From an uncultured Chlorobiaceae bacterium (lineage in GTDB: Bacteria; Bacteroidota; Chlorobiia; Chlorobiales; Chlorobiaceae), in NCBI GenBank assembly GCA_903942355.1, contig CAJAOR010000114.1, positions 1-35,848 of the forward strand: a DNA stretch of 35,848 nt, given 5' to 3'. Both the position numbers and the translations under genes were made by a program. Within the stretch, counting starts at the first letter, position 1; each line of letters starts with the position of its first letter. Below the pieces are notes generated by a model. That model saw only the letters and a program-made list of their open reading frames with translations, was not told where the DNA came from and searched no databases. Below, one piece after another: positions 5,214-30,840 of this stretch.

Positions 5214-5258
5214 CTGTTAGATGTCAAATTTAAAAAAACAAGAGATAACGTGTTCTTA

Positions 5259-6512: not shown

Positions 6513-6531
6513 TTTTATAAAAGAATTCAAA

Positions 6532-7245: not shown

Positions 7246-7346
7246 AAAAAATGATTTATATATGAATTATTCAAAATGAAGCCAATAATTACTCATATAA
7301 CAATGGTTCTGTAAGCGAGATTCATTGTTATAAGTGCCCGACTACC

Positions 7347-7454
7347 TCATTCCAGCCATGTAAGCCCCATGAGCATAATCATTGCTATGCCAGTTAATAC
7401 AATTCTGATCCAATCAAGCCAAAGGTAATAAGTTATATTATTGCTCGATTTTTC
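7347..7454 (-). pseudogene. Possible remnant of a membrane protein gene
   Basis: In the 242-bp spacer between two glycosyltransferase genes, a stop-to-stop frame encodes 35 residues with a convincing membrane-helix segment, YYLWLDWIRIVLTGIAMIML, ending TWLE before a TGA. It lacks an upstream ATG in frame and is too short for a known family. It could be the tail of a decayed transporter or polymerase gene, or a chance frame in AT-rich DNA. Confidence 0.2.
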
Positions 7455-7487
7455 TTATGGCTTTGACACAACTATTATAATTTGTTT

Positions 7488-8783: not shown

Positions 8784-8800
8784 AATTCCCTGTTTTTTTA

Positions 8801-12275: not shown

Positions 12276-12319
12276 TCTTAATTTTTCTTAGAATTTGCTA
12301 ATCCAACTCATCATTTATT

Positions 12320-12335
12320 TGCAAATTGAATGCCA
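12320..12335 (-). promoter_or_regulatory. Candidate sigma-54 promoter for the distal glycosyltransferase run
   Basis: The minus strand reads TGGCAT-TCAAT-TTGCA. Ten of the eleven consensus positions of TGGCAC-N5-TTGCA match, and the GG-N10-GC spacing is exact. The -12 box is 45 nt upstream of the GT2 start codon at 12275. This is the best sigma-54 match found in the window. The 198-bp spacer it lies in holds no other gene. Confidence 0.65.
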
Positions 12336-12473
12336 AAGGCAAGAGAAGATATAAGTTATTTATTTATAGTCGATTGAGTGCGTATGAAGGAAATAGGGTC
12401 TCTTTGTGCATAGCATCTAGAGAGGCTTTTTGGAGGCAGGGCTCTCTAATTGATAGAGTCAGGGAGAGGGGTA

Positions 12474-13691: not shown

Positions 13692-14046
13692 TGCCGTAAT
13701 GCAATTTAATACGAATGATTGCTGCAACAATAATTCCAATAGTGATTCCGATATTGTTGTAGAATGCGTCCAGATTCAGATTTTCGAATCCATCACCGGT
13801 AATTGTTCCGTGCAGTATTTCAAAAAGAAAGCCTATCGGTGCTATGGAAATGGTGACCATAAATGCTATGATCCTCTTCCTGAATAAGAGTATGGGCACA
13901 AAAGCGAGAATGGAATAGATGGATATATGAAAAAGTATGTTGAATACATTCCCGGCTGAACTCGCTGTGCTTCTTGAAAAACTCGCGGCCACAAGTCCAA
14001 TAAAGACTATAATCCAGATTATTATCAGTTTTGTGGAAAGTTGCAT
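13675..14046 (-). CDS. VanZ-like small membrane protein
   Basis: A 123-residue protein with about four membrane helices. The family pattern is visible: FHISIYSILAF in helix 2, GFLFEILHG in helix 3 and LDAFYNNIGITIGIIVA before and in helix 4, corresponding to the conserved H...Y, E...H/Q and D...N..G positions of VanZ-like proteins. VanZ homologues are common in polysaccharide and exosortase-type loci, but the biochemical role is unknown. It is 22 bp downstream of the Wzy-like gene and overlaps the WG-repeat gene, so it belongs to the same transcript. Confidence 0.75.
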   Translation of the reverse strand: MQLSTKLIIIWIIVFIGLVAASFSRSTASSAGNVFNILFHISIYSILAFVPILLFRKRIIAFMVTISIAPIGFLFEILHGTITGDGFENLNLDAFYNNIGITIGIIVAAIIRIKLHYGNESSI

Positions 14047-14068
14047 TTTTAGGCAAAGTTAATAGTTA

Positions 14069-15502
14069 TTAGCGAATAAATGTTGAGTTTCGAGAAGGTG
14101 AAGCTCCAATGAAACGAGTCCCTTGAGCAATTACTCTCTCTATCATATCTGAAATATTGTTATCTGAAGGAGCTAAAAAAGAGTCTGGGTTTTTTATGAA
14201 CAACCCGATCAAACCACCAATAATGACCATATAAATGGGATTGAACATCGCATTAAGAAGGTTGTCTATCTGCGTTATGGATGAAAAGACAGCCATAACA
14301 GCCGGCGCTCCATAGGTTTCGGTTTTCCATAATTCAGGCTTTAGACGGAAAAGAAAAATTAATACCGGCAACTGAATCATAATAAAAAATACGGACAACC
14401 CGTAAATGCCATTGACACCGTAGACTATAATCCAGCCTCCATCAGTTACTGCGATATCTTTTCCTTGATCATCAAAGACTCTTGAACGATTCCAACCTCC
14501 TAATCCAAAAAAAGAGCCTTCAAATGCCTTCTTGAGAAGTATGGTTTCATTGTCGAATCTGAATTGTAATGATGCAGCTCGCGATGGACTGAGTTTTTCG
14601 GAAATATAGTCAGTAAAATTTCTGCCATCCCATGAATAGCCGATTCTTGCAACCATGTAGAGATAGGGACAGAGCAGTAATATTACAACAAGAATAAAAT
14701 TCTTATATCTGCTTGAAATATAGAGCACGCCAAGACCAATGAGTAAATATGCAATTGCACCGGCAGACTGCATCATCATGGTCGTAAAGACAAGCATAAG
14801 GAGCAGGTAAAGAGAGGGTATCTTTAATATTTTTTGAGGGAGTGCTTTGCAGTAATAGAGCCAACTCCCAAGCAAAGAAGCCAACATCATCCACATGGAA
14901 GTCATAAGACCATGGTCCATGTAGACTGATGGCCTGTACCCACCGTTTTCGCGCAAACTCTGAGCAAAGCTTGTTTGGGAAAACCCGTAGGTCAGACGAT
15001 GCATCTGGGGGCTGATGATCATTTCAATCCAACAAAAGGGCACATAGATAATGCCACCGATAAAAATAGTTAAGGCCAGGGTTTTTAAGGCATCGGTATC
15101 AGTAAAATAGATTCTGCCAATATAGTAGGGGAGGCCATATTTTATGCCCGAGTACAAAATTGTCGAAAGACCGTCATAAACCCCTAAACCATTGAACACT
15201 GAAGAAAAAAACGAGGCGGAACACCACAGCACAATCAGTATATCGGCGATATGAAACTTGAAGTTTAAAAGTCGTGCTTTATCACAAAAATAGGCTCCGG
15301 CAAAAATGCCGAGACCGAGAACAGTTGATTTTGTGTTTTTAAGCAAAAAAATGTCATAATTAGCAACCGGCAGGAACATCCATCCACCCACATAGGCTAT
15401 GACGGGCACAAGGCGCGCATCAATCTTTTTGTAGAGAAAGATGACGATTGGCGTCCATGCCAAAAAAGCAAGCGGCACCAATATGTTTCCCGGGGCACTC
15501 AT
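14069..15502 (-). CDS. O-antigen polymerase/ligase-like integral membrane protein (Wzy/WaaL type)
   Basis: A 477-residue protein with roughly ten to twelve membrane helices. A large periplasmic loop around residues 160-200 contains RLTYGFSQTSFAQSLREN and GGYRPSVYMDHG, followed by a later loop with FEGSFFGLGGWNRSRVF. Arg/His/Gly-rich loops of this sort are typical of the Wzy_C/O-antigen ligase superfamily. It would polymerise or transfer lipid-linked repeat units in the periplasm. The only other candidate polymerase in the locus is the processive-type GT2. It is linked by a 4-bp ATGA overlap to the acyltransferase upstream. Polymerase and ligase cannot be separated by eye. Confidence 0.75.
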   Translation of the reverse strand: MSAPGNILVPLAFLAWTPIVIFLYKKIDARLVPVIAYVGGWMFLPVANYDIFLLKNTKSTVLGLGIFAGAYFCDKARLLNFKFHIADILIVLWCSASFFSSVFNGLGVYDGLSTILYSGIKYGLPYYIGRIYFTDTDALKTLALTIFIGGIIYVPFCWIEMIISPQMHRLTYGFSQTSFAQSLRENGGYRPSVYMDHGLMTSMWMMLASLLGSWLYYCKALPQKILKIPSLYLLLMLVFTTMMMQSAGAIAYLLIGLGVLYISSRYKNFILVVILLLCPYLYMVARIGYSWDGRNFTDYISEKLSPSRAASLQFRFDNETILLKKAFEGSFFGLGGWNRSRVFDDQGKDIAVTDGGWIIVYGVNGIYGLSVFFIMIQLPVLIFLFRLKPELWKTETYGAPAVMAVFSSITQIDNLLNAMFNPIYMVIIGGLIGLFIKNPDSFLAPSDNNISDMIERVIAQGTRFIGASPSRNSTFIR

Positions 15503-16005
15503 TGTTGTTTATTATGAACTATAGCGGGTATACCAACGGCTGTAGATGCCTCGGGGACATCATTCAAGACAACAGCGTTAGCCCCAATGCGAGCGTGAGC
15601 TCCAATGTGAATATTTCCGATTATTTTGGCTCCCGCTCCGATATCAACATGACCATCAATAACGGGAAGTCCTGGCTTGAATCCCTTTCCGATGGTAACT
15701 TGCTGAAAGATAAGGCAGTTTGGGCCGATTTCAGCATCAGGATGAATAACGATACCGTTTGGATGAGGAATCATCAGACCGCCACCTATTTTGGAATTCA
15801 AAGGGATATCAGCACCGCTTACAGCACTCCAGAAGCGGTGCCGCAAAACAAGAAAAGGAGATATCATTTTTGAAAGAAAGTCATTATTTGCCTTCAGACG
15901 TTGGTAACTCCTGATTGTTAATAAAAGGTGTTTTCCTGGATCATATTTTCCCGGGATTATTTTTTCTCGCTTCCAGTCAGGCTGTGTAGATGAAATAATC
16001 ATCAT
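15499..16005 (-). CDS. Left-handed beta-helix acyltransferase (serine acetyltransferase-like)
   Basis: A 168-residue protein. A helical N-terminus is followed by hexapeptide repeats from about residue 85: IPLNSKIGGGLMIPHPNGIV, IHPDAEIGPNCLIFQQVTIG, DIGAGAKIIGNIHIGAHARI and GANAVVLNDVP. The order and the HPNGIVIHPDAEIG active-site region match CysE/WcaB-like O-acetyltransferases that use acetyl-CoA. In this context it probably acetylates a sugar of the repeat unit and not free serine. A GGAG Shine-Dalgarno sequence overlaps the stop of the preceding GT4 gene, so the genes are coupled; the start has a second ATG immediately after the first. Confidence 0.85.
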   Translation of the reverse strand: MMIISSTQPDWKREKIIPGKYDPGKHLLLTIRSYQRLKANNDFLSKMISPFLVLRHRFWSAVSGADIPLNSKIGGGLMIPHPNGIVIHPDAEIGPNCLIFQQVTIGKGFKPGLPVIDGHVDIGAGAKIIGNIHIGAHARIGANAVVLNDVPEASTAVGIPAIVHNKQQ

Positions 16006-16008
16006 TCT

Positions 16009-17148
16009 TTAACTCCAGATTTCAGGATATCTATTTTGGAGGAGTAACGCTCTTTGTTCAGCAACCCTTTCCCAAGTAAATTGTTGCGCTCTTAGCTTTG
16101 CGTTCTTACCAAGTTGACTTCTTTTTTCAGGGCTTTCCGAAAGCTCTGTTATTGCTGCAGCCCATGCATCAACATCCTTATCTGAAAGCACCAGGCCATT
16201 TATTTTGTCTTGTACGATTGCGCCGCCTCCCATTGCGCTAACAATTGGGGGTATTCCGTGAGCCATTGCTTCGTAGGTGACCATTGGACCACCTTCTTCA
16301 ATACTTGGAAAGACAAAAACGTCAGCCATGTTGTAAATTTCCCCAATATTATTGGTATAGGTAATAAGCCGTATATTTTTTTTATTCAGATTTTGAGCAA
16401 AAACAGTTGCAATATAATTATCAATATTGCCACAAAGAATTAAATCGCCGTCAATATCAGCACGACTCCAAGCCTCAAGAAGAAGAGGAATCCCTTTGCG
16501 CATACAGAGTTTTCCTACAAACAAAAATACTGGACGGGAGTTTTTTTTGCGAGGTTCATCTACCAGGGGGAAACGATCAGGTTCCCATCCATAGCTTGAA
16601 GAGAGTATTTTGGCTCCAGGAACATTATTTTCGAGCAATGAACTCTTAACCATCGGACTTGGGGAAAAAATTGCATCGGCAAGTGCAAGTTTTTTGTTTT
16701 CCTCAGCAATGTCTTCATCGGTTATTGTGATCACCGGTGTTATACCTAATATATTAGCAGCATCAGTTACTAATCTACGGGAAGTAGCGCGATGACAGTT
16801 TATCCGTTCAGTAATAATTTTAACGCCTTTATCACTAAAAAAAATAAAGACATCAAGTGATAATCCTGCCCAGAGGTAAACATGGGAAGAAAGAATTTCT
16901 TGTTTGCAAAATCGTTTTTCAGTAATACTTCTTATCTGATTAGTTGTATAAAATTTATAGAAAATTTTTTTATTCGAACCTTTTAACGCTGGTTTGATCC
17001 ATGTATAAGTTAAAGAGTCATCAGTTCCCGCAACAGAAAGAGTTGCTTTCTTCCCTTTTTTGTTCCAGTATCGACAAAGGGAAATCGGTACATGACTATT
17101 GCCAAGATTTGAGGCATGATAACCAAAAAGAACTGGTAATGGGCTCAT
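16009..17148 (-). CDS. GT4-family glycosyltransferase
   Basis: A 379-residue GT-B enzyme. The N-terminus HASNLGNSHVPISLCRYW contains a glycine/asparagine loop. The C-terminal half has FLFVGKLCMRKGIPLLLEAW, DLILCGNID and the EX7E motif EGGPMVTYE within PSIEEGGPMVTYEAMAHG, followed by a typical PPIVSAMGGG. It lies 21 bp downstream of the co-polymerase gene and just before the acyltransferase, which suggests that assembly, export and modification genes share one transcript. The sugar added is unknown. Confidence 0.88.
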   Translation of the reverse strand: MSPLPVLFGYHASNLGNSHVPISLCRYWNKKGKKATLSVAGTDDSLTYTWIKPALKGSNKKIFYKFYTTNQIRSITEKRFCKQEILSSHVYLWAGLSLDVFIFFSDKGVKIITERINCHRATSRRLVTDAANILGITPVITITDEDIAEENKKLALADAIFSPSPMVKSSLLENNVPGAKILSSSYGWEPDRFPLVDEPRKKNSRPVFLFVGKLCMRKGIPLLLEAWSRADIDGDLILCGNIDNYIATVFAQNLNKKNIRLITYTNNIGEIYNMADVFVFPSIEEGGPMVTYEAMAHGIPPIVSAMGGGAIVQDKINGLVLSDKDVDAWAAAITELSESPEKRSQLGKNAKLRAQQFTWERVAEQRALLLQNRYPEIWS

Positions 17149-17169
17149 AAAGAATTTGTGGTGATAAAT

Positions 17170-19428
17170 TTATTGCTGTTTCTTATTCAAAATTATATTA
17201 TTTAAAGTCTTAAGCAATTTATCAATGTTGTTGTTTTTTGATGTAGGATTCTTTATAAAATTAATAATTCTCTGAGGTAAGACTTTCTTTATAAATTCCG
17301 GAGGATTATCAAAAAGTTCTTCAATAGAAAGAGTCTGTCTTACACCGCCAAAGTTCAGAATAGGAGCAATTCCAGGAACTCCAAGACGAATAAGCAGTTC
17401 TGCAGAATGCCTCAAGTCTTTGAATTTAGAGCTATCACCAAGACAAACCAATGCGACTATATCACTGTAAATTGCAAGCTGTTCCGTAAGGTGGCTTTTT
17501 AATAATGACGGACTGTCGATACAGATAAAGTCATACTCTTTTTTGACTTCATCAAGCAGGGTTTTTATTAACTGCCGAGGTATAGGATTTGCCGTTATAT
17601 TGCCTGCATACATCATATCAATATTATCACCCGGGGTGGAAATAATGTAATCTTTCCATGACACGCCATTATAGAGATAATCGCATAGTCCTGGTAAATT
17701 AAGCTGAAAATCAGAGTCATTATCAACCACAGGAACCTCAATGTCACCATCTATCATGAGGACTTTTGGAGCAATTCTGGAAAGTGCTTTGGCGCAACTG
17801 AATGCAATTGCTGATGAGCCTACACCTTTTTCAATTCCAGTAAAGAGAATTGTTCTTGTATTATCGCGGTCTTTTTCGCGACAGAACTTTATGGCTAGAC
17901 TGCCTATCTGATGGGCCTTAAAATCATCCGGAGCAATACTCAGATGTTGCTCGTTATCTCTTTGTTTGTCAATATCTGAAATTGTCTGTGTAGGAGGATA
18001 ACCAAGAGCGTGCTCAACGTCAATCGGTCGACGGATGGTATCATCAAAATATTCATAGAGAAAAAACGCACCGCCGACTACGGCGAACGCGCCGAAAAAG
18101 AACATCGTCAAGAGGTTTTTTGTATTTGATTTAAGAGGAGCGCTTGGTGTTCTCGCCAGAGATTCTATGGATATACGTAACGGGGCCTTGTTTTCAATCT
18201 CTATCTCCGTTATTCGAGTATCAAGCATATCGAGAACACCACGCTTATGTTTTACAAACTCAGAGAGACTTTCTCCTTTATGAATCCCTATTGAGACGCG
18301 TTTTGACTCTTTTAAGTTTTTATCGAGTTCATCCTGAATTTGCAACTCAGTTTTTTTAGTTTTTTCTAAATCAGTTTTTGCATGTACCAATTGTGTATTT
18401 ATATCAAGATTTCTCTTGCCATTCAGTACTGATTTTGCCGTAGTCCTAATCTCACTGTGCAACTTGGTTGCGTATTTTTTCATGGCATCCATGCGTTGTT
18501 CAACATAGATCCGGTCTGGATTCTTCGGCGTCAGTCCATCTGTTGTGCTTCTCATTTCCTGGAGTTGCTGATATGTCCAAGAATCTGTTGAATAAAGTGA
18601 TTGGTTATTCATCACCAACTCATCAATAAGAGGGTCTAATGAAAACGAAGATATTTCTTTGCCTTCAGTTTTTATTTTTTCATAATTTGTTTCTGCTTTT
18701 ATTCTTTCAAACATGGCATTGTCATATATGCCTAAAAGTGATATGCTGTTTTTGGCTGCAATGTTAAACTCTTCGGAATATGCTGCGGTCGAAATATCCT
18801 TAGTAAGACTGTCAAGATTTCGCTCATACATAGACATTTGATCTTCAATAGACTTTTTTTGACCGTAAAGATATTTTAGCTTATCTAAATCGATGGTATT
18901 GTTTTTTGTTCGATTGTCGTTAATGTAGACATTCATGAGCTTGTTCACTATTTCTGCAAGCCCCTGTGGTTTGCTTCCGGAAATTATGATCTCCAAGAGA
19001 TGTGTTCCTGGAAACGGCTTGACCGTAATGATATGATCAAGAATATCAGCGCAAACATCTGGCGATTTGATGCCGGGAAACATCGCGCTTCTTTCGCTGG
19101 AACTAAGTTGCTCGACAGTAAGCTTTAGAATATCAAATGATTTTATAGAGTGCGCTTGAGTGTTGGCGTAATCTTTATAATAGTTGACTATAGAGGACTC
19201 ATCAGATGTTGCAATTAATTTGGATATAACCGGGTCAAGCTTTAGAAACGCGTGGACTTCATAGTATGGGTTTTTTATCAAAAAAATTAACGGCGTTAGC
19301 ATTGCGAACAGAAACGAGCCTAAAAAAAGAATAAACAGTCCGTATCGCTTTAAAAAACCGATGATATCGAATGATTTAGAACGATTTCCATAAGGGAGTA
19401 CCTCTCTTACGGCATTTTCTTTAAGCAT
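17170..19428 (-). CDS. Wzc/Wzz-like polysaccharide co-polymerase with degenerate kinase-like ATPase domain
   Basis: A 752-residue inner-membrane protein of the BY-kinase/chain-length-determinant type. TM1 is at about 31-51 and TM2 at about 437-460. Between them is a large periplasmic, coiled-coil-rich region with KLDPVISK and ARTPSAPLKSN just before TM2. The C-terminal cytoplasmic part has a Wzc-like P-loop domain: IEKGVGSSAIAFS at about 532-544, KVLMIDGDIEVP (Walker A') and YDFICIDSPSLL (Walker B). The lysine of the normal GK[ST] P-loop is Ser538 here, and the C-terminus (IINFIKNPTSKNNN onward) has no tyrosine cluster. ATP binding may be weak and tyrosine autophosphorylation appears absent. 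It is next to the ABC transporter and the Wza-like protein and probably controls chain length or opens the exporter. Confidence 0.88.
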   Translation of the reverse strand: MLKENAVREVLPYGNRSKSFDIIGFLKRYGLFILFLGSFLFAMLTPLIFLIKNPYYEVHAFLKLDPVISKLIATSDESSIVNYYKDYANTQAHSIKSFDILKLTVEQLSSSERSAMFPGIKSPDVCADILDHIITVKPFPGTHLLEIIISGSKPQGLAEIVNKLMNVYINDNRTKNNTIDLDKLKYLYGQKKSIEDQMSMYERNLDSLTKDISTAAYSEEFNIAAKNSISLLGIYDNAMFERIKAETNYEKIKTEGKEISSFSLDPLIDELVMNNQSLYSTDSWTYQQLQEMRSTTDGLTPKNPDRIYVEQRMDAMKKYATKLHSEIRTTAKSVLNGKRNLDINTQLVHAKTDLEKTKKTELQIQDELDKNLKESKRVSIGIHKGESLSEFVKHKRGVLDMLDTRITEIEIENKAPLRISIESLARTPSAPLKSNTKNLLTMFFFGAFAVVGGAFFLYEYFDDTIRRPIDVEHALGYPPTQTISDIDKQRDNEQHLSIAPDDFKAHQIGSLAIKFCREKDRDNTRTILFTGIEKGVGSSAIAFSCAKALSRIAPKVLMIDGDIEVPVVDNDSDFQLNLPGLCDYLYNGVSWKDYIISTPGDNIDMMYAGNITANPIPRQLIKTLLDEVKKEYDFICIDSPSLLKSHLTEQLAIYSDIVALVCLGDSSKFKDLRHSAELLIRLGVPGIAPILNFGGVRQTLSIEELFDNPPEFIKKVLPQRIINFIKNPTSKNNNIDKLLKTLNNIILNKKQQ

Positions 19429-19437
19429 ACGTGGAAA

Positions 19438-21198
19438 CTATTTCTTTATAAAGAGCGATGGAGTTCCGTGTGACTCAACTTTTCCATTCTGGAGATTGTA
19501 AACGGTGTCACATTTTTCGATTGTACTTAGTCTGTGGGCAACGATGATGATTGTTTTTGATCCTTGCAGGGCATTTACGGCTTCCATAACCTCTTTTTCA
19601 GTTGCGATATCCAGAGCACTTGTCGCTTCGTCAAGCACGAGTATAGAGGGATTGTGATAGAGTGCGCGAGCGATGCCGATCCGTTGACGTTGGCCGCCCG
19701 AGAGGCGAACGCCCCTCTCACCCACAATGGTATCAAGTCCTTCCGGGAGTTCCTCCACAAATTCTGTAAGATATGCGGCAGAAATCGCCTTTTTTACAGA
19801 CTCTTCATCAATATCTTCGGTTGGCAATCCGAATGCTATGTTTTTCCGAAGCGTATCATCAGTCAAATATATTGATTGTGCTACATAACCGATCTGGTTC
19901 TGCCATCCACGTATGTTTTCTTGAATATCAAGACCGTCTACTTCAATAGAACCAGAATCAGGTTTCAGTAATCCCAGAAGGATATCAACAAGCGTGCTTT
20001 TGCCAGATCCACTTTTTCCGATAAAACCTACAGAGGTCCCCTGCTTAATGGTAAGAGAGATATTGTTGAGGGCAGGAGATGGAGCTGTGGGATAGGTATA
20101 GGAAATATTTTGAAGGACGAGTTGGTTGTTGAATGATTTCGACGCTGTTTCAGGTTTATTTGTTTCATCAACCGGCAGTGCAAGCTCCTTTTGCAGGATA
20201 TCAATGACCGGCGAGCAATATTTTAGCGCCTGTGATGCACCGAGAATCCTGTTTATGGATGGTATTAGGCGGAACGCAGCTACAGCAAAAAGGCCCATCT
20301 TGGGGATGATGTCTCCAATTGCACCTCCCTGAGCTAACGTTGTAATGACAAGCAGTGCAAAAGCGGCAATTGTCAGCAACTCCATGAGCAGGCGGGGTAA
20401 CTGCTGCACGGTTGCGTTTAATTGTACAACACTTGCACGTGCATTGGTATGAACTTTATATCGATGTAAAAATTCAGAATCTCGTCCCAGTAATTTAACA
20501 TCTTTGGCACCACCAAGCCCTTGCTGGAGGTGAAGGAGCCTCATCCCATCATGTAGCTGACGAATTTCACCCCAGTGGGTCATCCTTTTTTTTGTCAGGC
20601 TCATAAATCCAAAACCTGTCAAGCCAAATATGCTGATGATGATAATGCTGCCCACTGGATCGACCAACACGACCATAATGCATATAGCAACAATAACGAG
20701 AGACTCCGTAATGAGTTGTAATGTTGGGGTTACAACGTTATTGGTAAACACCCCAACTTCAGTAATCACATTTTGGATTAACAGAGCGGAGTTTTGCTGC
20801 AGGTGAAATGCGTATGGCTGACGCAGGTAGATAGTGAAGAGGCGAAGCGAGAGCCTTGCCTCTACATTGGAGATAAAGCGATTTTGGGCCCAGGCCAGCA
20901 AGCCTAAATAAACAGCCTTGCAGAGATAGACACAAAACAGCAGCAGGACGCCACCGATCAAGAGTGTATTAGGATCCGGGTTCCCTAAAAATTGGAGCAG
21001 CGGACGGATAGCCGGATATTTTTCGGCGATATTATGTGCAGAAAAAATTGCAAGCGTCGGTATCACTAAACCGATACCAAGCGTTTCAAGACAAACACCG
21101 ATAAGCATTAAAAAAAGCAATATCGTAATGTTTACTCGCTCTTTTGGTAGCAGGAACAGCTTAGCTTTTTTATGTAACGACAGGAAAGAGAGAGTCAT
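19438..21198 (-). CDS. ABC transporter with fused membrane and ATPase domains (flippase/exporter type)
   Basis: A 586-residue half-transporter: six membrane helices in residues 25-320, then an ATPase domain with Walker A GKSGSGKST at 394-402, signature LSGGQRQRIGIARAL from 499, Walker B ILVLDE at 519-524 and the switch His in IIVAHRLSTIE. The architecture is that of MsbA/PglK-like exporters, which flip lipid-linked oligosaccharides or lipids and act as homodimers. No Wzx flippase is present in the window, so this protein is the best candidate for moving the lipid-linked repeat unit across the inner membrane. It lies between the Wza-like and Wzc-like genes, 9 bp from the latter. Confidence 0.92.
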   Translation of the reverse strand: MTLSFLSLHKKAKLFLLPKERVNITILLFLMLIGVCLETLGIGLVIPTLAIFSAHNIAEKYPAIRPLLQFLGNPDPNTLLIGGVLLLFCVYLCKAVYLGLLAWAQNRFISNVEARLSLRLFTIYLRQPYAFHLQQNSALLIQNVITEVGVFTNNVVTPTLQLITESLVIVAICIMVVLVDPVGSIIIISIFGLTGFGFMSLTKKRMTHWGEIRQLHDGMRLLHLQQGLGGAKDVKLLGRDSEFLHRYKVHTNARASVVQLNATVQQLPRLLMELLTIAAFALLVITTLAQGGAIGDIIPKMGLFAVAAFRLIPSINRILGASQALKYCSPVIDILQKELALPVDETNKPETASKSFNNQLVLQNISYTYPTAPSPALNNISLTIKQGTSVGFIGKSGSGKSTLVDILLGLLKPDSGSIEVDGLDIQENIRGWQNQIGYVAQSIYLTDDTLRKNIAFGLPTEDIDEESVKKAISAAYLTEFVEELPEGLDTIVGERGVRLSGGQRQRIGIARALYHNPSILVLDEATSALDIATEKEVMEAVNALQGSKTIIIVAHRLSTIEKCDTVYNLQNGKVESHGTPSLFIKK

Positions 21199-21222
21199 CT
21201 TTTTGTTTTTTCGATTGTTTAT

Positions 21223-22287
21223 CTATTTGCCGAAGGAGTTGATTATCGTTGAATTTCCTTTGATGAGATTCATATCTCCTATGCCCATACTCATTATTTG
21301 CAACGAAGGCATAAGTTTTTCGAGGGTATAGTTGAACTTTGCCATACCTGTTGCACTGATATAGACAATATCATTAGGCAACAGCGTGAAGTTTTGACTG
21401 AAGTCTCCATGGGCGATAAGTTTATTGAGATTAACCGTAATGACGTCGCCCTTCACTTCCTGTTGCCTGACAATAAATACTTTTTCGGGGTTTGCATCTT
21501 TGTTCAACCCTCCTGAAAGCATGATTGCTTTCAGGACGTTCATACCATCTTTCAATTGCACGGCGCCTGGATTTTTTACCTCTCCCATCACATAGACAAT
21601 TTCATCATTCAGTTCAGGAAGGAAAATCACATCATTGTTTCTGATCGGTGCATTCAGGCTCATATTGCCGTTTTTAAGGAGATCCTGAAGATCGATCCAT
21701 ATAACACTGTTATTGCCTCGGATGATCGAGCATCTTGTCATTTTGCCCTGATCAGGAAGTCCCCCAGCAAGAGCAAGGCCTTCAAGCAAGGTCCCATTGC
21801 CAGGGAAGTTTATGACACCAGGCTTAGCAACCCGGCCAAGTACAAAAGCCTTGTTGTTATGAAACTCTTTGATCTGTACCGTTACTTCAGGCTCTGTATA
21901 GAGTACCTCAAGTTTTGACGTTAACAATTTTTGCACCTCTTCGGAGGTGTAGTTGATGACATTGAGATTGCCTACTCTGGGCATAGCGATAAAGCCGTCA
22001 GGTGAGACCAGTATATTCTCCTGCGAAAGCTCAGGCCTCCGCCAAACCTTGATAGTGACTAGATCACCCGGGCCCAAACGATACTGATAGGTCTCCTTGG
22101 GTCTTATAGCTTCTAACTGCTCTTTGGTGGCAAACTTCTGGTTTTTTTGGGGAAGTTCAATACTGAAATCTCTCTCAGGAGGAGCAGGGACACGGGTGGG
22201 TTTTGGCGAAATGCCACTGCATGCACTTATCATCACTGAGAGCATAATGCCGCATAGTATGGTAATTATATGTTGTTGTAACCTCAT
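21223..22287 (-). CDS. Polysaccharide export outer-membrane lipoprotein (Wza/KpsD-like)
   Basis: A 354-residue lipoprotein. The signal peptide ends in VMISAC with Cys23 as the lipidation site. The poly_export domain follows (YQYRLGPGDLVTIKVWRRPE and VSPDGFIAMPRVG), then SLBB-type repeats starting near AFVLGRVAKPGVINFPGNG and VYVMGEVKNPGAVQLKDG. These proteins form the outer-membrane channel for capsule and exopolysaccharide. The C-terminal segment after ISATGMAKFNY is short and ends in NSTIINSFGK, possibly the amphipathic helix that crosses the outer membrane. It begins after a 170-bp spacer that may contain its own promoter and a weak terminator, so the export genes may form a separate transcriptional unit. 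Confidence 0.92.
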   Translation of the reverse strand: MRLQQHIITILCGIMLSVMISACSGISPKPTRVPAPPERDFSIELPQKNQKFATKEQLEAIRPKETYQYRLGPGDLVTIKVWRRPELSQENILVSPDGFIAMPRVGNLNVINYTSEEVQKLLTSKLEVLYTEPEVTVQIKEFHNNKAFVLGRVAKPGVINFPGNGTLLEGLALAGGLPDQGKMTRCSIIRGNNSVIWIDLQDLLKNGNMSLNAPIRNNDVIFLPELNDEIVYVMGEVKNPGAVQLKDGMNVLKAIMLSGGLNKDANPEKVFIVRQQEVKGDVITVNLNKLIAHGDFSQNFTLLPNDIVYISATGMAKFNYTLEKLMPSLQIMSMGIGDMNLIKGNSTIINSFGK

Positions 22288-22335
22288 GGAGCCATCAAAA
22301 AAAAATGTTGCCGAGTGTATCGTTTAAAATAATAC

Positions 22336-22358
22336 AAAAAAATTGCCGATAGCTCGGT
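22336..22358 (-). terminator. Weak hairpin plus T-run between acetyltransferase and export gene
   Basis: On the minus strand CCGA-GCTA-TCGG is followed by CAA and seven T. The stem is only four base pairs, so this is a weak candidate terminator or attenuator about 50-70 nt upstream of the Wza-like start codon. Confidence 0.25.
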
Positions 22359-22457
22359 TGAATTAAATTTTTATCCTATAGGTGATTACGGTGAATCTCG
22401 TTTTTGTTCTGCCAGTCATATAGCAAGCTTTAGGGCTCTTCTCTCTGATGTTGTGAG

Positions 22458-22991
22458 TCAGGCGGTGACCGAAAGGGAGAGACGCTCTTTATGGGGAATA
22501 ACTTTTGCTGGAATACCTACGGCAAGGCAGTTGTCGGGGACTGAGGTTATTACTACGGCATTGGCGCCGATATCGACATTGTTGCCGATAGTGATATTGC
22601 CGAGGATTTTTGCCCCGGTGCCGATATTGACATTGTTGCCGATTGAGGGGGCGACTTTTTGGTCAATATTTTTCAGGCCGATTGTTACTCCGTTTCGGAT
22701 AATGCAGTTATCGCCGAAACTGGCATAACCGCTGACAATGATATCACCAAAATGCTCAATACGGAAATTTGCTCCAACCGGAACCTCACAGGGAAGTTCT
22801 ATACCCGTAAGCACCTGTACGATTTTATAGAGAAATTTGTAAAGGAGAGAAAAGGGGCGCCGGATAATCCCGTTTTTTAAGGTGTAACGCCAGCGTCCGA
22901 ACCTGTAGACGATCATTACCCAAAAGCCTTGTGAGCTCCAGACTCCATTATAGGTTGCTAAATCAGCTCGAATGTTCGAAAAGAGAGTCAT
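22458..22991 (-). CDS. Serine O-acetyltransferase-like hexapeptide protein
   Basis: A 177-residue CysE-like left-handed beta-helix protein. The N-terminus (ADLATYNGVWSSQGFWVMIV and YRFGRWRYTL) is short compared with true CysE. The hexapeptide repeats run from about residue 75: FRIEHFGDIIVSGYASFGDN, CIIRNGVTIGLKN, GNNVNIGTGAKILGNITIGN and IGANAVVITSVP, followed by LAVGIPAKVI. The short N-terminal domain and the context suggest acetylation of a sugar in the polysaccharide instead of cysteine synthesis. It is 13 bp downstream of a GT2 gene and is the last gene before a 170-bp spacer. Confidence 0.85.
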   Translation of the reverse strand: MTLFSNIRADLATYNGVWSSQGFWVMIVYRFGRWRYTLKNGIIRRPFSLLYKFLYKIVQVLTGIELPCEVPVGANFRIEHFGDIIVSGYASFGDNCIIRNGVTIGLKNIDQKVAPSIGNNVNIGTGAKILGNITIGNNVDIGANAVVITSVPDNCLAVGIPAKVIPHKERLSLSVTA

Positions 22992-23004
22992 AAGTGACAG
23001 GTGA

Positions 23005-23976
23005 TTACCAGGGTGTCGGAGGTGAAAGAGTGCCTAAACGGGTATCAGAAAGCGACTGGAGAATCAGCTTGCTTATTGCCATGGCTGCAGCTCGTTTTTT
23101 AGCAGCATCTTTTGAGGGCAGCAGATTTTTTATGTATCGGGCGACATACCAGAGCAGTTCGACGCCTGTGGCCAATAACATAGAGATAAGGCCTTTGTTT
23201 TTGCGGTAATAGAGGCACTCACCGCGCATCCTGAAGGAGAGAACCTGTGCTGCTCTCACATCAATCGTTTTGTCTTTTCTTGTTTTACTGCTCGCCCCGC
23301 CTATGTGTATCACCTCGGCATCCGGAGTGAAATAGACTTTCCATCCTGCTTTTTTGGCACGAAGGCAGAGGTCGGTCTCCTCATAGTAGAGGTAGAAGCG
23401 ATTGTCGAAAAATCCGATTGCGTCGAGCATCTCCTTACGAACAATGGTATAGGTGCCTGGTACCCAATCGACTTCTATAGGCCTGTCGTGAGCAAATCCG
23501 CCGAATTCGTGGTGGTTCAGGATAGGGGATGTTGGGAATTTTCCGCTGATTCCCGAGAGTGTAAGCAGCTTGTAGAGTGCATTAGGAAACCGGCGCGCCG
23601 ATGGCTCAATATGGCCTTCCGGTGAAATTATTTTGCCTCCGCAAAGGCCGCACTGCGGGGTGCGATCCATAAACTCTATGCAGTGTTGAATTGATGAAGG
23701 CCTGATATAGGCATCGGGGTTGAGCAGAATGATATATCGGCCGGTTGCGTGCTCGAACGCCTGATTATTCGCTGCGGCAAAGCCAACGTTTTGAGTGTTT
23801 GCAGTCAGGCGCACAGAAGGGAATTCACTCTGCACCATAAGGGCTGAATCGTCGGTGGAGTTGTTGTCGACAACAAAAACCTCGAGATCAATACCCGTAC
23901 TATGGGTAAAAAGGGCCTGGAGGCAGTTACGGAGGATATCCTTTGTGTTGTAACTGACAATAATTACTGATACCAT
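23005..23976 (-). CDS. GT2-family glycosyltransferase (rhamnosyltransferase-like)
   Basis: About 323 residues with a GT-A domain at the N-terminus: VSVIIVSYNTKDILRNCLQA, VFVVDNNSTDDS, NVGFAAANNQAF and the LLNPDAYIRPSS metal-binding region. Later motifs are VDWVPGTYTIVRKEML, YYEETDLCLRAKKAGW and VIHIGGASS. This set is typical of WbbL-like rhamnosyltransferases of family GT2. A C-terminal amphipathic or membrane-associated segment is near residue 270. The second ATG (23976) is preferred because AGGA lies 5 nt before it; the first ATG (23982) is two codons upstream with no spacing for a Shine-Dalgarno sequence. Confidence 0.87.
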   Translation of the reverse strand: MVSVIIVSYNTKDILRNCLQALFTHSTGIDLEVFVVDNNSTDDSALMVQSEFPSVRLTANTQNVGFAAANNQAFEHATGRYIILLNPDAYIRPSSIQHCIEFMDRTPQCGLCGGKIISPEGHIEPSARRFPNALYKLLTLSGISGKFPTSPILNHHEFGGFAHDRPIEVDWVPGTYTIVRKEMLDAIGFFDNRFYLYYEETDLCLRAKKAGWKVYFTPDAEVIHIGGASSKTRKDKTIDVRAAQVLSFRMRGECLYYRKNKGLISMLLATGVELLWYVARYIKNLLPSKDAAKKRAAAMAISKLILQSLSDTRLGTLSPPTPW

Positions 23977-24001
23977 GTGCATCCTGAGGTAGTTTGGTTG
24001 G

Positions 24002-24471: not shown

Positions 24472-24599
24472 TTACATAGCTGTCGCTGCAACGTCATCAT
24501 ATAAAGCAACTGACTCTCCGGTGACTGCTCGATATGGCTAAGAATGCCTTGCAGTGAGACAATCGGAACGTTATTGCTGTTTTTTTCAATGACAGTCAT
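24472..24599 (-). pseudogene. STAS-domain anti-sigma antagonist gene with internal deletion
   Basis: The ATG at 24599 overlaps the stop of the fusion gene (ATGA). The first 20 codons give MTVIEKNSNNVPIVSLQGIL, which aligns without gaps with the start of the intact STAS protein at 30784 (11 of 20 residues identical). Soon after, the reading shifts. In another frame TGESVALYDDVAATAM and a TAA match the STAS C-terminus (DIYDDVSAAAEA). The middle, including the DSSGLG phosphorylation motif and about 65-70 codons, is missing. The original frame reads on to a TAG at 24453-24455 and would make only 48 residues. It sits between the fusion gene and an RsbW-like gene, the same order as the intact block at 30 kb. 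Confidence 0.8.
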
Positions 24600-26352: not shown

Positions 26353-27072
26353 TTAGTATGCACCTTTGCCTGTCAGCACGGCCGGGATAGTTTTTAGAAG
26401 CAAAAGAAGATCATTGAGAAAACTTGCGCTTTTGATATACTGCATATCAAGCATAACCTGTTCATTAAAGGGGATATCGCTTCTGCCGCTTACCTGCCAA
26501 AGACAGGTAATGCCGGGTATGACGTGCAGTCTTTTACGCTCTTCAAGGGTATATTTTGCCACCTCCGACGGGAGTGGCGGTCTGGGCCCAACAAGACTCA
26601 TGTCGCCAATGAGGACATTGAGAAGTTGCGGCAGTTCATCGATGCTGAGCTTGCGGATTACCCTTCCAACCCTTGTGATTCTGGGATCTTTTTTAATTTT
26701 GAAGATAACACCTGCTGTCGACTCGTTCTTCGCTGCCAGTTCTGCTTTTAAATGGTCGGCATTAAGAATCATCGACCTGAATTTGTAAAACTTGAAATGC
26801 TTGCCATTTCGGCCCACCCTTGTCTGGTAATAGAGGACAGGGCCGGGATTTTCAATCCAGATGCAGAGCGCTGTCAAGAGACAGAGAGGAAGAAAAAATA
26901 ATCCACCAACTATTGCGACTGTTATATCCAACACTCTTTTCAGGAGATAGGAAAACATTACCGTCACCTCCCATGAAGTGACCTTCACGGAGCGTCTGAA
27001 GCGGACCTTTGGATTGATCGACTCGCTGACTTTCTCTATCAGCTCTTTTCGGACTGTTGGATCAAGTTCCAT
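26353..27072 (-). CDS. Polyisoprenyl-phosphate sugar-1-phosphate transferase (initiating enzyme)
   Basis: A 239-residue bacterial sugar transferase (PF02397 type), which starts a repeat unit by moving a sugar-1-phosphate from a nucleotide sugar to undecaprenyl phosphate. One membrane hairpin is at about 47-72. FKFYKFRSM is at 93-101, then DPRITRVGRVIRKLSIDELP, IGDMSLVGPRPPLP and PGITCLWQVSGRSD, all canonical. The small size is that of monotopic PglC/WbaP C-terminal-type enzymes with a roughly 40-residue N-terminal extension. It is the second gene of the locus, 6 bp after the TagA/WecG-like gene. Galactose, glucose, N-acetylhexosamine or bacillosamine donors cannot be told apart here. Confidence 0.93.
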   Translation of the reverse strand: MELDPTVRKELIEKVSESINPKVRFRRSVKVTSWEVTVMFSYLLKRVLDITVAIVGGLFFLPLCLLTALCIWIENPGPVLYYQTRVGRNGKHFKFYKFRSMILNADHLKAELAAKNESTAGVIFKIKKDPRITRVGRVIRKLSIDELPQLLNVLIGDMSLVGPRPPLPSEVAKYTLEERKRLHVIPGITCLWQVSGRSDIPFNEQVMLDMQYIKSASFLNDLLLLLKTIPAVLTGKGAY

Positions 27073-27078
27073 ATAAAT

Positions 27079-28305
27079 CTACCGTGTAGAGTGCCGATTA
27101 ATTGCGTTGGTGGATCTTTCCCGAATCCTTGACGAATAAGCGCTAGAGATCGATTTTGAGATCTCTTTCCATGCTAATGGTATAAATTGGCTGTCCCTTA
27201 TCAGATAACGCCTCCACATTCGTGTCGGTTCGCTTGCCAGACGCCAGATCCATTCACAGCCTGATCTCTGTATCCACAGGGGAGCCCGATGAATAACACC
27301 TGCAGCAAAATCAAACGCTGCGCCAACACAGAGTATAGGACCAACCTGTAGTCGATCACTATGTTTTGCGGCCCATTTTTCCTGTTTTGGAGCCCCAACA
27401 CCAATAAAAAGGATGTCGATATTTCGGGTGTTTATATCATTAATAATCCAATCGGTCTCTTTCGGCGTATTCTCAAATCCAAAAGGGGGGCAGTAGATAC
27501 CTGATATTTTCAAGCCAGCAAATTTGCCTTTGAGTTTTGCTGCTGCCTGTTCGGCAATACCAGGATTGCCTCCGAGGAAATAGATATTCAAGTCGGCTTT
27601 TGCAGCTTTTTCACACACGGCTATCAAGAGGTCGGCACCGGTTACCCGCTCCGGAAGACTTCCGTCCTTCACTATTTTGCTCAACCAGACAATAGGCATT
27701 CCATCAGCATATCTAAAGAGCGCATTGTCATAGATTTGCTTCATGTCGCTATCCTCTTGCAGCATAACGACATGGTCTACATTTGGCGTGACAACAAGGC
27801 CCTTTTTCTTTTCCTTGCCCGCGTTAATGATTTGAGTAACCGCTGAGGAGAGTGTTGCCCGTTCAAATGAAATGCCTAAAAGTTCTGTTTGCATTTTTTC
27901 TGGTACCTTTGGCTCATGGTTGATTATTTTTTCGGCAACAACTAAAAAGCTTTGATAGCTTCCGAAAAAAATCAGTCCTAACGATCGAAGCAAACGCTCA
28001 TTCTCTTCATCTTCATTTTTTGAGAGGCAGATGATTTTGCATGGATTGAGATGCTGTTTAATATAGCTGAGCAGTTTTGCATCAGGAGCCTCAGAGAAGC
28101 TGTCAGTCATCACAATTAGCTCAAAGTGGTGCCTTTGCGTGCTTATCAATTCAAGTTCTTCAGTGCTCTCGGCCAGGCTAATATGGTAATTGGTATTTTG
28201 AAGCAAAGAGCAAAGCGAAGGGACCTCTATTTTTTTTCCTAAAATCAGTGCGTTAATCACTCGGGGGATATGTGTCTTTGTTTTTAAAAGCCCTGTGTTA
28301 ATCAT
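27079..28305 (-). CDS. WecG/TagA/CpsF glycosyltransferase (GT26) with N-terminal pseudo-receiver domain
   Basis: A 408-residue protein. The C-terminal 270 residues are a GT26 enzyme: VVTPNVDHVVMLQ from about 171, FRYADGMPIVW, RVTGADLL, FFLGG-type loop YFLGGNPGIAEQAA and FIGVGAPKQEKW. Family members transfer N-acetylmannosaminuronic acid, N-acetylmannosamine or glucose to a lipid-linked sugar. Residues 15-130 have the alternating strand/helix pattern of a response-regulator receiver (NALILGKKIEV, HFELIVMTDSF, KIICLSKNEDE), but the phospho-acceptor position is Thr67 and the acidic pocket is absent. It could sense a signal without phosphorylation. It is the first gene of the polysaccharide locus and is preceded by a sigma-54-like promoter 50 nt upstream. 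The start codon has GGAA just in front of it. Confidence 0.88.
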   Translation of the reverse strand: MINTGLLKTKTHIPRVINALILGKKIEVPSLCSLLQNTNYHISLAESTEELELISTQRHHFELIVMTDSFSEAPDAKLLSYIKQHLNPCKIICLSKNEDEENERLLRSLGLIFFGSYQSFLVVAEKIINHEPKVPEKMQTELLGISFERATLSSAVTQIINAGKEKKKGLVVTPNVDHVVMLQEDSDMKQIYDNALFRYADGMPIVWLSKIVKDGSLPERVTGADLLIAVCEKAAKADLNIYFLGGNPGIAEQAAAKLKGKFAGLKISGIYCPPFGFENTPKETDWIINDINTRNIDILFIGVGAPKQEKWAAKHSDRLQVGPILCVGAAFDFAAGVIHRAPLWIQRSGCEWIWRLASEPTRMWRRYLIRDSQFIPLAWKEISKSISSAYSSRIRERSTNAINRHSTR

Positions 28306-28534: not shown

Positions 28535-29872
28535 CTATAAGTTGTAGATTTTCAGGCGGCGGTAGAGTGTTGCTTCGCTGATACCAAGAAGTTTGGCTGC
28601 GGCGCGTCTGTTGCCGGTTGTCTGATTGAGGGCTTTACGGATTGCGTCTTTTTCGTGAGAGGCAATACTTGCTGGTTGTTGGTTGTCAACTCTTTCGTCA
28701 TTTGTTGCCGGATAGGGGTTGAAAGAGAGGCTATCGCGCTCCATAATATCGCCATGGGAGATGGTTATGGCTCCACGGACGACGTTTTCGAGTTCACGGA
28801 TATTGCCTGGCCAGTCAAAAGCCATGAGGGCGTTCATGGCACTTTCGGAAAATTGCTTGGCTGGGTATCCTTCCTTGATGAGCTTGTCAATAAAGTAATT
28901 GCAAAGAAGAGGGATATCAAGCCGTTGCTCACGCAGTGGCGGGGCAAAAATTGTGATAGCATTCAGGCGGTAGTAGAGGTCCTGGCGAAAGGTTCCTTTT
29001 TTGACGGCTTCGGTAAGATTGCAGTTTGTAGCGGCAATGATTCGGATATTAACGGGATAAATTTTTGTTTCTCCAACTGGTTTTACTGCTCGCTCTTGAA
29101 GGGTGCGGAGCAATTTAGCCTGCATCGAGAGAGGCAGTTCAGCTATTTCGTCAAGAAAAAGAGTGCCTTTATCCGCAGAGCGTATCATGCCAAGCGTGTT
29201 TCGGTCGGCACCGGTAAAGGCACCTTTTGAGTGCCCGAAAAGTTCGCTCTCAATAATGCTGTCGTTGATTGCGGCACAATCGACAGGGATAAAGACTTCG
29301 TTGCTTCTTGCGCTTTGAGCGTGTATGGCACGGGCAATAACTTCCTTACCGGTGCCGCTTTCGCCCTGAATGAGAATTGTTGTTCCGGTCGGGGCTATTT
29401 TAAGCAGCAGCTTTTTGAGCTTTTGCATTTCAGGTGACTCACCTATAAGGCCCTTAAAATCAAAGGCACCGGAAGGAGAGTGCAGTGCAACAGAAGTTGT
29501 CTGTTCCGCAAATTTATAGAGGGATCGGTTTGTCCCGACTAACGGGGTATTTGACGCGAGAATGGATAAGAGCAGTTCTGAAGGTAGTTGAGTTAAGGCG
29601 GTTAAGGTGTTGCCTAACTCATCCTGATTGCTGACAAGAATCACTTTTTTTGCCGGGTGCTTTTCGAGATTATGCTGGATAAAACATAGCCCTTCTTGTG
29701 CCTTCTCATGCAGTGCCATAAGGATTATGTCGATATCGTCAGCAAGGATATGATGCTCGGCATCGGTAATGTTGTCACAGTTTATGATCTTTAGATGCGG
29801 ACGTTCCCTGTCTATCAAGCCTTGGTGAGCTCTCTTTTTTTTTTCATTTATTACGAGTATTGTCGAAGACAT
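28535..29872 (-). CDS. Sigma-54-dependent transcriptional activator (NtrC family) with degenerate receiver
   Basis: A 445-residue enhancer-binding protein. The AAA+ domain has Walker A GESGTGKE at 170-177, the sigma-54 contact loop GAFTGA at 217-222, Walker B GTLFLDE at 236-242 and an arginine-containing FRQDLYYRLN. A Fis-type helix-turn-helix ends the protein (NRRAAAKLLGISEATLYRRL). The N-terminal 125 residues look like a receiver (TILVINEKKKR, IDIILMALHEKA, KKVILVSNQDE), but Ala53 replaces the phospho-Asp and the N-terminal acidic pair is reduced to Asn-Glu. It is thus unlikely to be switched by phosphotransfer. Codons 10-13 contain a run of ten A. It lies between the PP2C/STAS/HATPase genes and the polysaccharide locus, which is preceded by a sigma-54-like promoter. 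Confidence 0.95.
   Translation of the reverse strand: MSSTILVINEKKKRAHQGLIDRERPHLKIINCDNITDAEHHILADDIDIILMALHEKAQEGLCFIQHNLEKHPAKKVILVSNQDELGNTLTALTQLPSELLLSILASNTPLVGTNRSLYKFAEQTTSVALHSPSGAFDFKGLIGESPEMQKLKKLLLKIAPTGTTILIQGESGTGKEVIARAIHAQSARSNEVFIPVDCAAINDSIIESELFGHSKGAFTGADRNTLGMIRSADKGTLFLDEIAELPLSMQAKLLRTLQERAVKPVGETKIYPVNIRIIAATNCNLTEAVKKGTFRQDLYYRLNAITIFAPPLREQRLDIPLLCNYFIDKLIKEGYPAKQFSESAMNALMAFDWPGNIRELENVVRGAITISHGDIMERDSLSFNPYPATNDERVDNQQPASIASHEKDAIRKALNQTTGNRRAAAKLLGISEATLYRRLKIYNL
29835..29844 (-). repeat. A10 homopolymer at codons 10-13 of the sigma-54 activator gene
   Basis: Ten consecutive T on the plus strand, ten A on the coding strand, in codons for Glu-Lys-Lys-Lys. Slippage by replication or transcription would shift the frame near the very start of the regulator. 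Confidence 0.9.
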
Positions 29873-29984
29873 AAACCTTACCTATTATTTAGTGATGCTT
29901 TTTCCTCGACCTATGACCATACGGGCCAAATCGTCATTTAAGGTCTTGCGGGACTGTAAGGAGAGCATGCAAAACTCGGGAAGG

Positions 29985-30422
29985 CTAATAATATAACGCA
30001 TTATTACATGTTATTTTTGGTTGTTTTGTCATGGTCAGTATGTTTGAGTCATCTTCCCTTGTGTAAGCAACCTTGTCCATTAGCCGGTGGATCAAAAAAA
30101 GTCCATATCCGCCTTCAGGATAACTGTTTATGTCTGGAGCCTCAGTAATCGGGTTGAATTGCGGATTCTTGTCAATGATGTTTACCGTGAGGGTGCCGTT
30201 GTCGGACCAGAAGCATATCTTAACCTGTTTTTCCTTTTGTGAAGGTTCCGCATATCGGACCGAGTTTGTAAATGCTTCACTAACGGAGAGCTCATAGGCA
30301 TGACAGAATTCAGCTACGTTGGCACCATCGGCAAAAATTTCAGCAACATTACCGGCCATAATGGAGACAATCCGGAGATAACGGAGATCAGCCTGCAATG
30401 TTAAGGTGGCTATCGGGTTCAT
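29985..30422 (-). CDS. RsbW-like serine kinase/anti-sigma ATPase (HATPase_c_2), copy B
   Basis: A GHKL ATPase of about 145 residues, paralogous to the one at 24002-24445 along its whole length (TLTLQADLRYLRIVSIMAG, YELSVSEAFTNSVRYAEPS, IIDKNPQFNP, SYPEGGYGLFLIHRLMDKV). As in the paralog, the G1 box DxGxGF is altered (DKNPQF), while the N-box and G2 glycines remain. The ATG at 30422 is preferred because it aligns with the paralog start; a longer frame opens at 30452. It follows the intact STAS gene by 38 bp and precedes the sigma-54 activator gene. Expected role: phosphorylates the STAS protein or sequesters a partner; the partner here need not be a sigma factor. Confidence 0.87.
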   Translation of the reverse strand: MNPIATLTLQADLRYLRIVSIMAGNVAEIFADGANVAEFCHAYELSVSEAFTNSVRYAEPSQKEKQVKICFWSDNGTLTVNIIDKNPQFNPITEAPDINSYPEGGYGLFLIHRLMDKVAYTREDDSNILTMTKQPKITCNNALYY

Positions 30423-30460
30423 AAGTAAGATGATTTGCCTTTTCTTGTGCATCTTTTTTA

Positions 30461-30784
30461 TTATGCCTCAGCCGCAGCCGACACATCATCATAAATATCA
30501 AACAGCGTATAGGCCTGTGTGATTTCAAATACTTTTTTTACTCGTTCATTCATTCTTGCCAGTTTGACCACGGCATTGCTTGTCTTTTTTTTCCGGGCAA
30601 TCCCTACCAGCACTCCGAGACCGCTACTGTCAAGAAATTCAATATTTTCCAGGTCAACGACAATAGATTGCGTATCCGGCAACCCTGCTACGTAGGATTT
30701 CAGCATTGGAGCAGAGGAGGCATTGAGGATACCCTGAATCGAGAGAATTATATAGTTGTTGATGGTCTTTTCGCTGATGTTCAT
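30461..30784 (-). CDS. STAS-domain anti-sigma factor antagonist (RsbV/SpoIIAA-like)
   Basis: A 107-residue STAS protein: NNYIILSIQGILNASSAPML at the N-terminus, SIVVDLENIEFLDSSGLGVL with the intact DSSGLG phosphorylation motif, and TQAYTLFDIYDDVSAAAEA at the C-terminus. Length and motifs are standard for RsbV/SpoIIAA. It is preceded by the remnant of a fusion-gene 3' end, with which its ATG forms an ATGA overlap, and followed by an RsbW-like gene. The REC-PAS-PP2C gene immediately upstream supplies the expected phosphatase. Confidence 0.93.
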   Translation of the reverse strand: MNISEKTINNYIILSIQGILNASSAPMLKSYVAGLPDTQSIVVDLENIEFLDSSGLGVLVGIARKKKTSNAVVKLARMNERVKKVFEITQAYTLFDIYDDVSAAAEA

Positions 30785-30840
30785 GCGGGTTCATTTTTAT
30801 GTGTTTTGTTGAAAATGGCTTTTTGTGTCATGGAAATATT
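30781..30840 (-). pseudogene. 3'-end remnant of the fusion gene (last 20 codons)
   Basis: The spacer between the PP2C gene and the STAS gene encodes, in one frame ending in TGA, NISMTQKAIFNKTHKNEPA. This aligns without gaps with the end of the fusion protein at 24596 (DIAMTQKALFNRIHQEDTV). A 14-nt stretch, ATGACACAAAAAGC, is identical, and the final TGA overlaps the next ATG in both places. It marks a duplicated segment. Confidence 0.75.

Follow-up and report, generated by a model that had tools for sequence, protein, structure and literature searches.

Two stretches of the window, the 35,848-nucleotide contig of an uncultured Chlorobiaceae bacterium analysed here, share the order fusion-gene 3' end, STAS gene, HATPase gene. 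Each is without what the other keeps: the STAS gene of copy 1 has lost 27 and 166 bp, and copy 2 has only 3' codons of the fusion gene. The initial annotation read them as an ancestral block that had been duplicated and had then decayed in a complementary way. Did the second copy arise in place or did it come from another lineage? The window genome (G000; 258 contigs, 77% complete) belongs to the Chlorobium group, and the relatives compared are Chlorobium strains and uncultured Chlorobiaceae, mostly metagenome assemblies.

Organization of the Locus

On the minus strand, the window reads PP2C, STAS_B2, HAT2, sigma-54 activator, WecG, sugar transferase (SugT), STAS_A, fusion gene, broken STAS_B1, and HAT1 (table 1). 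GT2, acyltransferase, Wza, ABC, Wzc, and more polysaccharide genes follow 3' of HAT1, down to ~3.1 kb. Throughout the family, nearly all genomes having the fusion gene carry a STAS gene and then a HATPase gene behind it, the usual order being PP2C - (activator, WecG) - SugT - STAS_A - fusion - STAS_B - HATPase - GT2 - acyltransferase - Wza - Wzc. The closest relatives of the window, in a nine-genome clade by rpoB and FNR, have one such block, located between FNR/MenA and hisF. In G055, G029, and G073, FNR/MenA-PP2C and hisF/PPK2 flank the cluster that we term resident. A different cluster, termed incoming, has the same flanks in the window, G069 (FNR/MenA-PP2C side), and G076 (on two contigs). 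As the same flanks surround two different clusters in close relatives, these clusters occupy one locus.

Table 1. Resident and Incoming Features of the Window.
Feature	Coordinates	Strand	Evidence
PP2C regulator, resident, 561 aa	30849..32534	-	Receiver PF00072, PAS PF00989, SpoIIE phosphatase PF07228; tree follows species clade
Resident fusion-gene relic, ~15 last codons and former intergenic STAS_B2 leader	30785..30839	-	74% over 85 bp with copy 1
STAS_B2, resident, intact, 107 aa, DSSGLG motif	30461..30784	-	PF01740; 83-90% to resident orthologues; tree
HAT2, resident HATPase, intact, 144 aa	29985..30419	-	PF13581 2.4e-25; groups with species relatives
Seam: 25-codon relic, 3' end of the incoming cluster's own PP2C	29888..29962	-	Between HAT2 and sigma-54 activator; conserved in G000, G069, G076, G011
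Sigma-54 activator, incoming	28535..29872	-	PF00158; 87-89% to G069/G076/G011, 74% to G046
WecG/TagA-type glycosyltransferase with N-terminal extension, incoming	27079..28305	-	PF03808; 79-87% in G069/G076/G011
Bacterial sugar transferase SugT, incoming	26353..27072	-	PF02397; 90% to G046, 74-77% to resident type; tree
STAS_A, incoming, 118 aa	25982..26338	-	PF01740; 75% to G046, 64-67% to resident type
Hexapeptide and sugar-transferase-like fusion gene, incoming, intact, 458 aa	24596..25972	-	PF00132, weak PF02397; groups with G046 100/98
STAS_B1, incoming, decayed, frameshifted	24472..24599	-	DNA alignment with intact G069, G076, G046 genes
HAT1, incoming HATPase, intact, 147 aa	24002..24445	-	PF13581 1.6e-20; 88%/83% to G069/G076, 62-63% to G046
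Remaining incoming cluster: GT2, acyltransferases, Wza, ABC, Wzc, polymerase-like, glycosyltransferases	3122..23982	-	Collinear orthologues, mostly 80-96%, in G069/G076/G011; Wza and GT2 trees

Some genes of the cluster are unusual in themselves. The gene at 12474-13739 encodes a WG-like repeat protein of 421 aa and is the least conserved of the shared genes (72-80%). The WecG-type gene (27079-28305) has an N-terminal extension of ~130 aa; its two parts are separate frames in G046, and the N-terminal part is a gene of its own beside a different WecG in other genomes. In G056, G043, and G079 (L073 5710-6006, L074 12882-13178, and L122 5681-5977, respectively), the PP2C and WecG matches share ~300 bp, which would fit two overlapping or fused genes.

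Homology and Relics of the Two Copies

Pairwise blastn of the two segments gave two collinear matches, one at the junction of the fusion 3' end and the STAS start (85 bp at 74%, E 1e-11 in this pairwise search) and one in the HATPase gene (375 bp at 65% DNA identity, E 4e-19; proteins 58% identical). The proposed homology and common gene order are thus confirmed, with similarity extending beyond the junction. The homologous region is in fact wider than first described: it takes in the PP2C gene of the resident block as well as a second relic, at the seam.

STAS_B2 begins with an ATG at 30784, and the ~55 bp before it (30785-30839) match the fusion 3' end and the STAS leader. The same fusion-gene relic is present in G044, G069, and G076, and a full-length resident fusion gene in G055, G011, G013, G029, and G073. 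In four of these five relatives, all with the resident block intact, a TAA ~13 bp upstream of STAS terminates the fusion gene; in the window, a T-to-A change destroyed this TAA and the frame now extends to a TGA. Only ~15 codons are therefore genuine fusion-gene coding sequence: copy 2 has indeed lost the gene, to a slightly greater extent than the 20 remaining codons reported. Likewise, the ATGA overlap common to the two copies is no sign of descent, since in the relatives the fusion gene ends at the upstream TAA. This ~55-bp relic may have been kept because STAS_B2 has its translation-start region there. For HAT2, ~30419 is a more likely start than the initially annotated 30452, 11 codons earlier, judging from the relatives, which align from MNPI/MHPI with stops just upstream.

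On the other copy, remnants of STAS_B1 lie between the fusion stop (24598-24596) and the HAT1 ATG (24445) and correspond to the first ~20, ten middle, and last ~13 codons. Compared with the intact orthologue of G069 (L114), the 27-bp deletion is in frame and the 166-bp deletion out of frame.

The Two Copies Have Different Ancestries

The resident-block relatives G055, G013, G029, G073, and G011 are 83-89% identical to copy 2 of the window in STAS_B and 73-79% in the HATPase; their fusion genes are just 53-56% identical to that of the window. For the window's fusion gene, HAT1, SugT, activator, Wza, and ABC genes, the nearest relatives are G069 and G076 (G011 in part), followed by G046 (65%, 63%, 90%, 74%, 81%, and 83% identity, respectively). 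In the HATPase phylogeny, which the initial annotation had itself proposed as the check, naming a split of the copies into unrelated clades as the outcome against it, copy 2 groups with G044, G055, G011, G013, G029, and G073, and copy 1 with G046 (100/98). Similarly, the window's fusion gene groups with G046 (100/98), apart from the resident type. The SugT, Wza, GT2, and activator trees agree with the history of copy 1, and the PP2C tree follows the species clade. In the rpoB and FNR trees, each a single-gene species tree, G046 is placed elsewhere, with G037, G043, and G056; the STAS_B tree is weakly supported. Judged from these phylogenies, the two copies demonstrably have different ancestries and are xenologues.

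Had the block been duplicated within the window lineage and then decayed in a complementary way, the tandem arrangement, the junction similarity, and the complementary losses would be explained. Genuine tandem duplications of the regulator pair do occur behind the fusion gene in genus g2: G034 (L029 1495-3236) has two tandem STAS-HATPase pairs, and G040 (L025 175-2402) two pairs and a third STAS gene, which are local duplications. For the window, this origin is extremely improbable: a single clade for both copies is rejected by the AU test (p-AU 0.0067 for the HATPase and 1.1e-11 for the fusion gene), and the genes flanking copy 1 share its history.

The explanation of which we are highly confident is an in-situ xenologous replacement of a surface-polysaccharide cluster with patchwork retention, in the Chlorobium group. 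It builds on two ancestries, seams, relics, and intact intermediates, all of which can be read in the genomes compared. The resident locus before the swap would have had the order PP2C - ... SugT - STAS_A - fusion - STAS_B2 - HAT2 - GT2 - ... - hisF. Into this site, a homologous cluster would have recombined from a different Chlorobium lineage, to which G046 is the closest known relative, its incoming part starting inside its own PP2C 3' end and joining immediately after HAT2, where the resident GT2 begins. This would have placed two homologous STAS_B-HATPase pairs with separate ancestries in tandem. In the window lineage, the resident SugT-STAS_A-fusion segment is gone except for ~15 fusion codons, with STAS_B2-HAT2 kept beside PP2C, and the incoming set is retained apart from the internally deleted STAS_B1. 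We infer homologous recombination as the route, as well as the direction of transfer. No near-identical donor cluster was found among 65 genomes of the genus, the nearest, G046, being from 62-66% (HAT1, fusion gene) to 90% (SugT) identical, and G046 may itself be a recipient.

The copies could alternatively be old paralogues, stemming from a duplication before the Chlorobium radiation and sorted by differential loss. The copies are as diverged as those of distant species, and the long-branch taxa G023 and G021/G025 are placed close to both clades, as this origin would have it. It is nevertheless highly unlikely, as one copy must have been lost independently in nearly all sampled genomes with the block, and as whole clusters with matching flanks alternate at a single locus.

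Seams of the Replacement

PP2C adjoins the activator directly in G046. In the window, G069, G076, and G011, the sequence separating HAT2 from the activator includes a stretch that corresponds to the 3'-terminal ~25 codons of a PP2C gene, for example TDRETFDNDLTCMVICI. A PP2C profile built from the relatives was convincing for the relic of G076 alone (9.0 bits vs. at most 3.3 in shuffles), and we therefore searched in the opposite direction, starting from a profile of the four relics. Against 9004 ORFs, all 21 non-self matches listed were PP2C C-termini (best E 6e-7). The window relic by itself scores 0.2 bits, no better than shuffles, and its identification rests on the alignment with the other three. 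The seam is eroded in the window, where 112 bp separate HAT2 from the activator and the exact position is blurred. In G069, the sequence just before the PP2C relic still encodes the N-terminal ~25 residues of resident GT2 (18.4 bits vs. at most 5.0 in 400 shuffled seams). Taken together, the PP2C relic and the GT2 start place the entry point of the incoming cluster inside its own PP2C and its junction at the beginning of resident GT2. Both relics, one from a second PP2C and one from resident GT2, further argue against an in-situ duplication. At the opposite border of STAS_B2-HAT2, what remains of the resident fusion gene, its final codons, abuts the PP2C end in the window, G044, G069, and G076.

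The window assembly is fragmented and incomplete, and a chimera of contigs from two organisms joined in one metagenome bin might be suspected. This is hardly credible, because the joins recur in separate assemblies: PP2C-relic-STAS_B2 in G044, G069, and G076, and HAT2-PP2C relic-activator in G069, G076, and G011.

Intermediates, Order, and Timing

Under the replacement scenario, several relatives represent distinct stages. The resident block is intact, as before the swap, in G055, G013, G029, and G073. G069 and G076 carry both STAS_B2-HAT2 and STAS_B1-HAT1 with all four genes intact (on two contigs in G076). G011 retained the resident SugT-STAS_A-fusion-STAS_B2-HAT2, followed by the incoming activator and WecG; the incoming genes from SugT to STAS_B1 are absent, and HAT1 is reduced to its C-terminal half, on another contig. 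On this gene content, G011 is a lineage in which the overlap was resolved in the opposite way to the window.

G044, sister of the window's species, has the order PP2C - fusion relic - STAS_B2 - HAT2 - membrane gene - hisF, and its fusion-relic junction is that of the window. It is without the incoming cluster: no close Wza was found, and the membrane gene is of the resident, not the incoming, type. Because G044 combines the relic with a resident-type downstream gene and no second copy, which also speaks against duplication, the decay of the resident fusion gene probably preceded the arrival of the incoming cluster, an order that rests mainly on this one genome. For the window, the simplest succession would be loss of the resident fusion gene, gain of the incoming cluster, and loss of STAS_B1, which makes complementary decay of a duplicate unnecessary.

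Synonymous divergence bears on the timing. Between the window and G069, G076, and G011, median dS is 0.48, 0.39, and 0.54 for the incoming genes versus 0.79, 0.76, and 0.81 for core and resident genes (Mann-Whitney p = 8e-5, 1.5e-4, and 8e-5, respectively). No such drop was significant at 0.05 in control pairs with resident clusters or between G069 and G076; codon bias could depress dS in some genes, and the control pairs include many of the same gene families. The lower dS indicates that the cluster reached or left the window's lineage after those species split, and it is unexpected for old paralogues.

Other signs of rearrangement were also seen at this locus. Between G013 and G029 (L067, L068), the Wzc, acyltransferase, and polymerase genes have dS of 0.86-0.99 and the rest of the cluster 0.11-0.30, a contrast that, on these values, is attributable to a further partial swap inside the resident cluster. 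In G011, the polysaccharide cluster is reversed relative to hisF, and a ~400-aa glycosyltransferase-like gene occurs twice around it in opposite orientations (L066 510-1709, L081 10201-11406), which suggests an inversion via these copies. G076 has two tandem copies of this gene near hisF (L189 8943-11418).

Predicted Function of the Retained Regulators

According to Pfam, the block encodes a SpoIIE phosphatase, a STAS protein with the serine motif (DSSGLG, STAS_B2), and HATPase_c_2 proteins. The N-box and G-box residues E48, N52, D83, N85, G104, and G106 are invariant in the HATPase alignment, and both HAT1 and HAT2 keep the ATP-binding residues. From these families, we infer that PP2C, STAS_B2, and HAT2/HAT1 form a putative partner-switching module (phosphatase, STAS, kinase) controlling polysaccharide synthesis. 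PP2C would dephosphorylate the STAS protein, which the HATPase would phosphorylate or bind, and sensory input at the receiver/PAS part of PP2C would set the state of the polysaccharide system. No cognate sigma-factor gene was seen in the block; a sigma-54 activator and sugar transferases are encoded nearby.

Comparison of the window with G069/G076 shows purifying selection on HAT1 (dN/dS 0.21-0.39), part of which may have acted before STAS_B1 was lost. No significant relaxation of selection followed this loss: the HAT1 of the window has more unique changes (6 versus 1 and 9 versus 3), but the difference is not significant (chi2 3.6 and 3.0). Given this selection and the ATP-binding residues of both HATPases, the remaining STAS_B2 may serve both. 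The initial view that the copies share one working set thus survives in part: the set is mixed, with the fusion gene from one copy and STAS_B from the other, and it includes two HATPases with intact ATP-binding motifs. It is possible, if somewhat doubtful, that the switch has been rewired, with a single resident STAS_B under two HATPases of different ancestry and HAT1 kept without its own STAS_B partner, placing the foreign cluster under hybrid resident-plus-foreign control. With this locus, one can ask experimentally whether a resident STAS protein is able to work with a HATPase of foreign origin, and hence whether regulatory partners are interchangeable across lineages.

Comparison with Known Systems

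In Vibrio fischeri, the STAS protein of the SypE/SypA system governs a polysaccharide locus (PMC4517449). Like SypE/SypA and the RsbW/SpoIIAB - RsbV/SpoIIAA - RsbU/SpoIIE systems, the window block combines a phosphatase, a STAS protein, and a HATPase_c_2 kinase-like protein, here beside polysaccharide genes. Unlike in RsbU/RsbV/RsbW and SypE/SypA, STAS and HATPase are here encoded separately, there are two STAS types (A and B), the block lacks a sigma-factor gene, and the window has one STAS_B for two HATPases. We found no literature on partner switching in Chlorobiaceae polysaccharide loci.

More generally, this locus shows that an apparent duplication with complementary decay can stem from an interspecies swap of surface-polysaccharide clusters. 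It also offers a rare series of snapshots: before the swap, with both pairs intact, with two opposite resolutions, and in a sister without the incoming cluster.

The work of Omelchenko from 2003 is reportedly the reference for in-situ xenologous displacement and the mosaic operon. Its hallmarks are found here: the same site, conflicting phylogenies of which one is the species tree, and remnants at the seams. As in mosaic operons, homologues of different ancestry coexist in one operon-like locus, the resident being partly displaced and pseudoparalogues left. A difference is that the two seams and the two relics can be seen here, as can intermediates that have not decayed and a sister lineage with the opposite resolution; what survives is an orphan regulator pair rather than a single enzyme. 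Capsule and O-antigen clusters are exchanged whole between conserved flanking genes, and the window's entire surface-polysaccharide cluster was similarly swapped within conserved flanks. This exchange differs in that it concerns green sulfur bacteria and in that the cross-over point falls within the regulatory head of the cluster itself, which leaves part of the old regulation in place. The locus is a new, well-resolved case of a known process.
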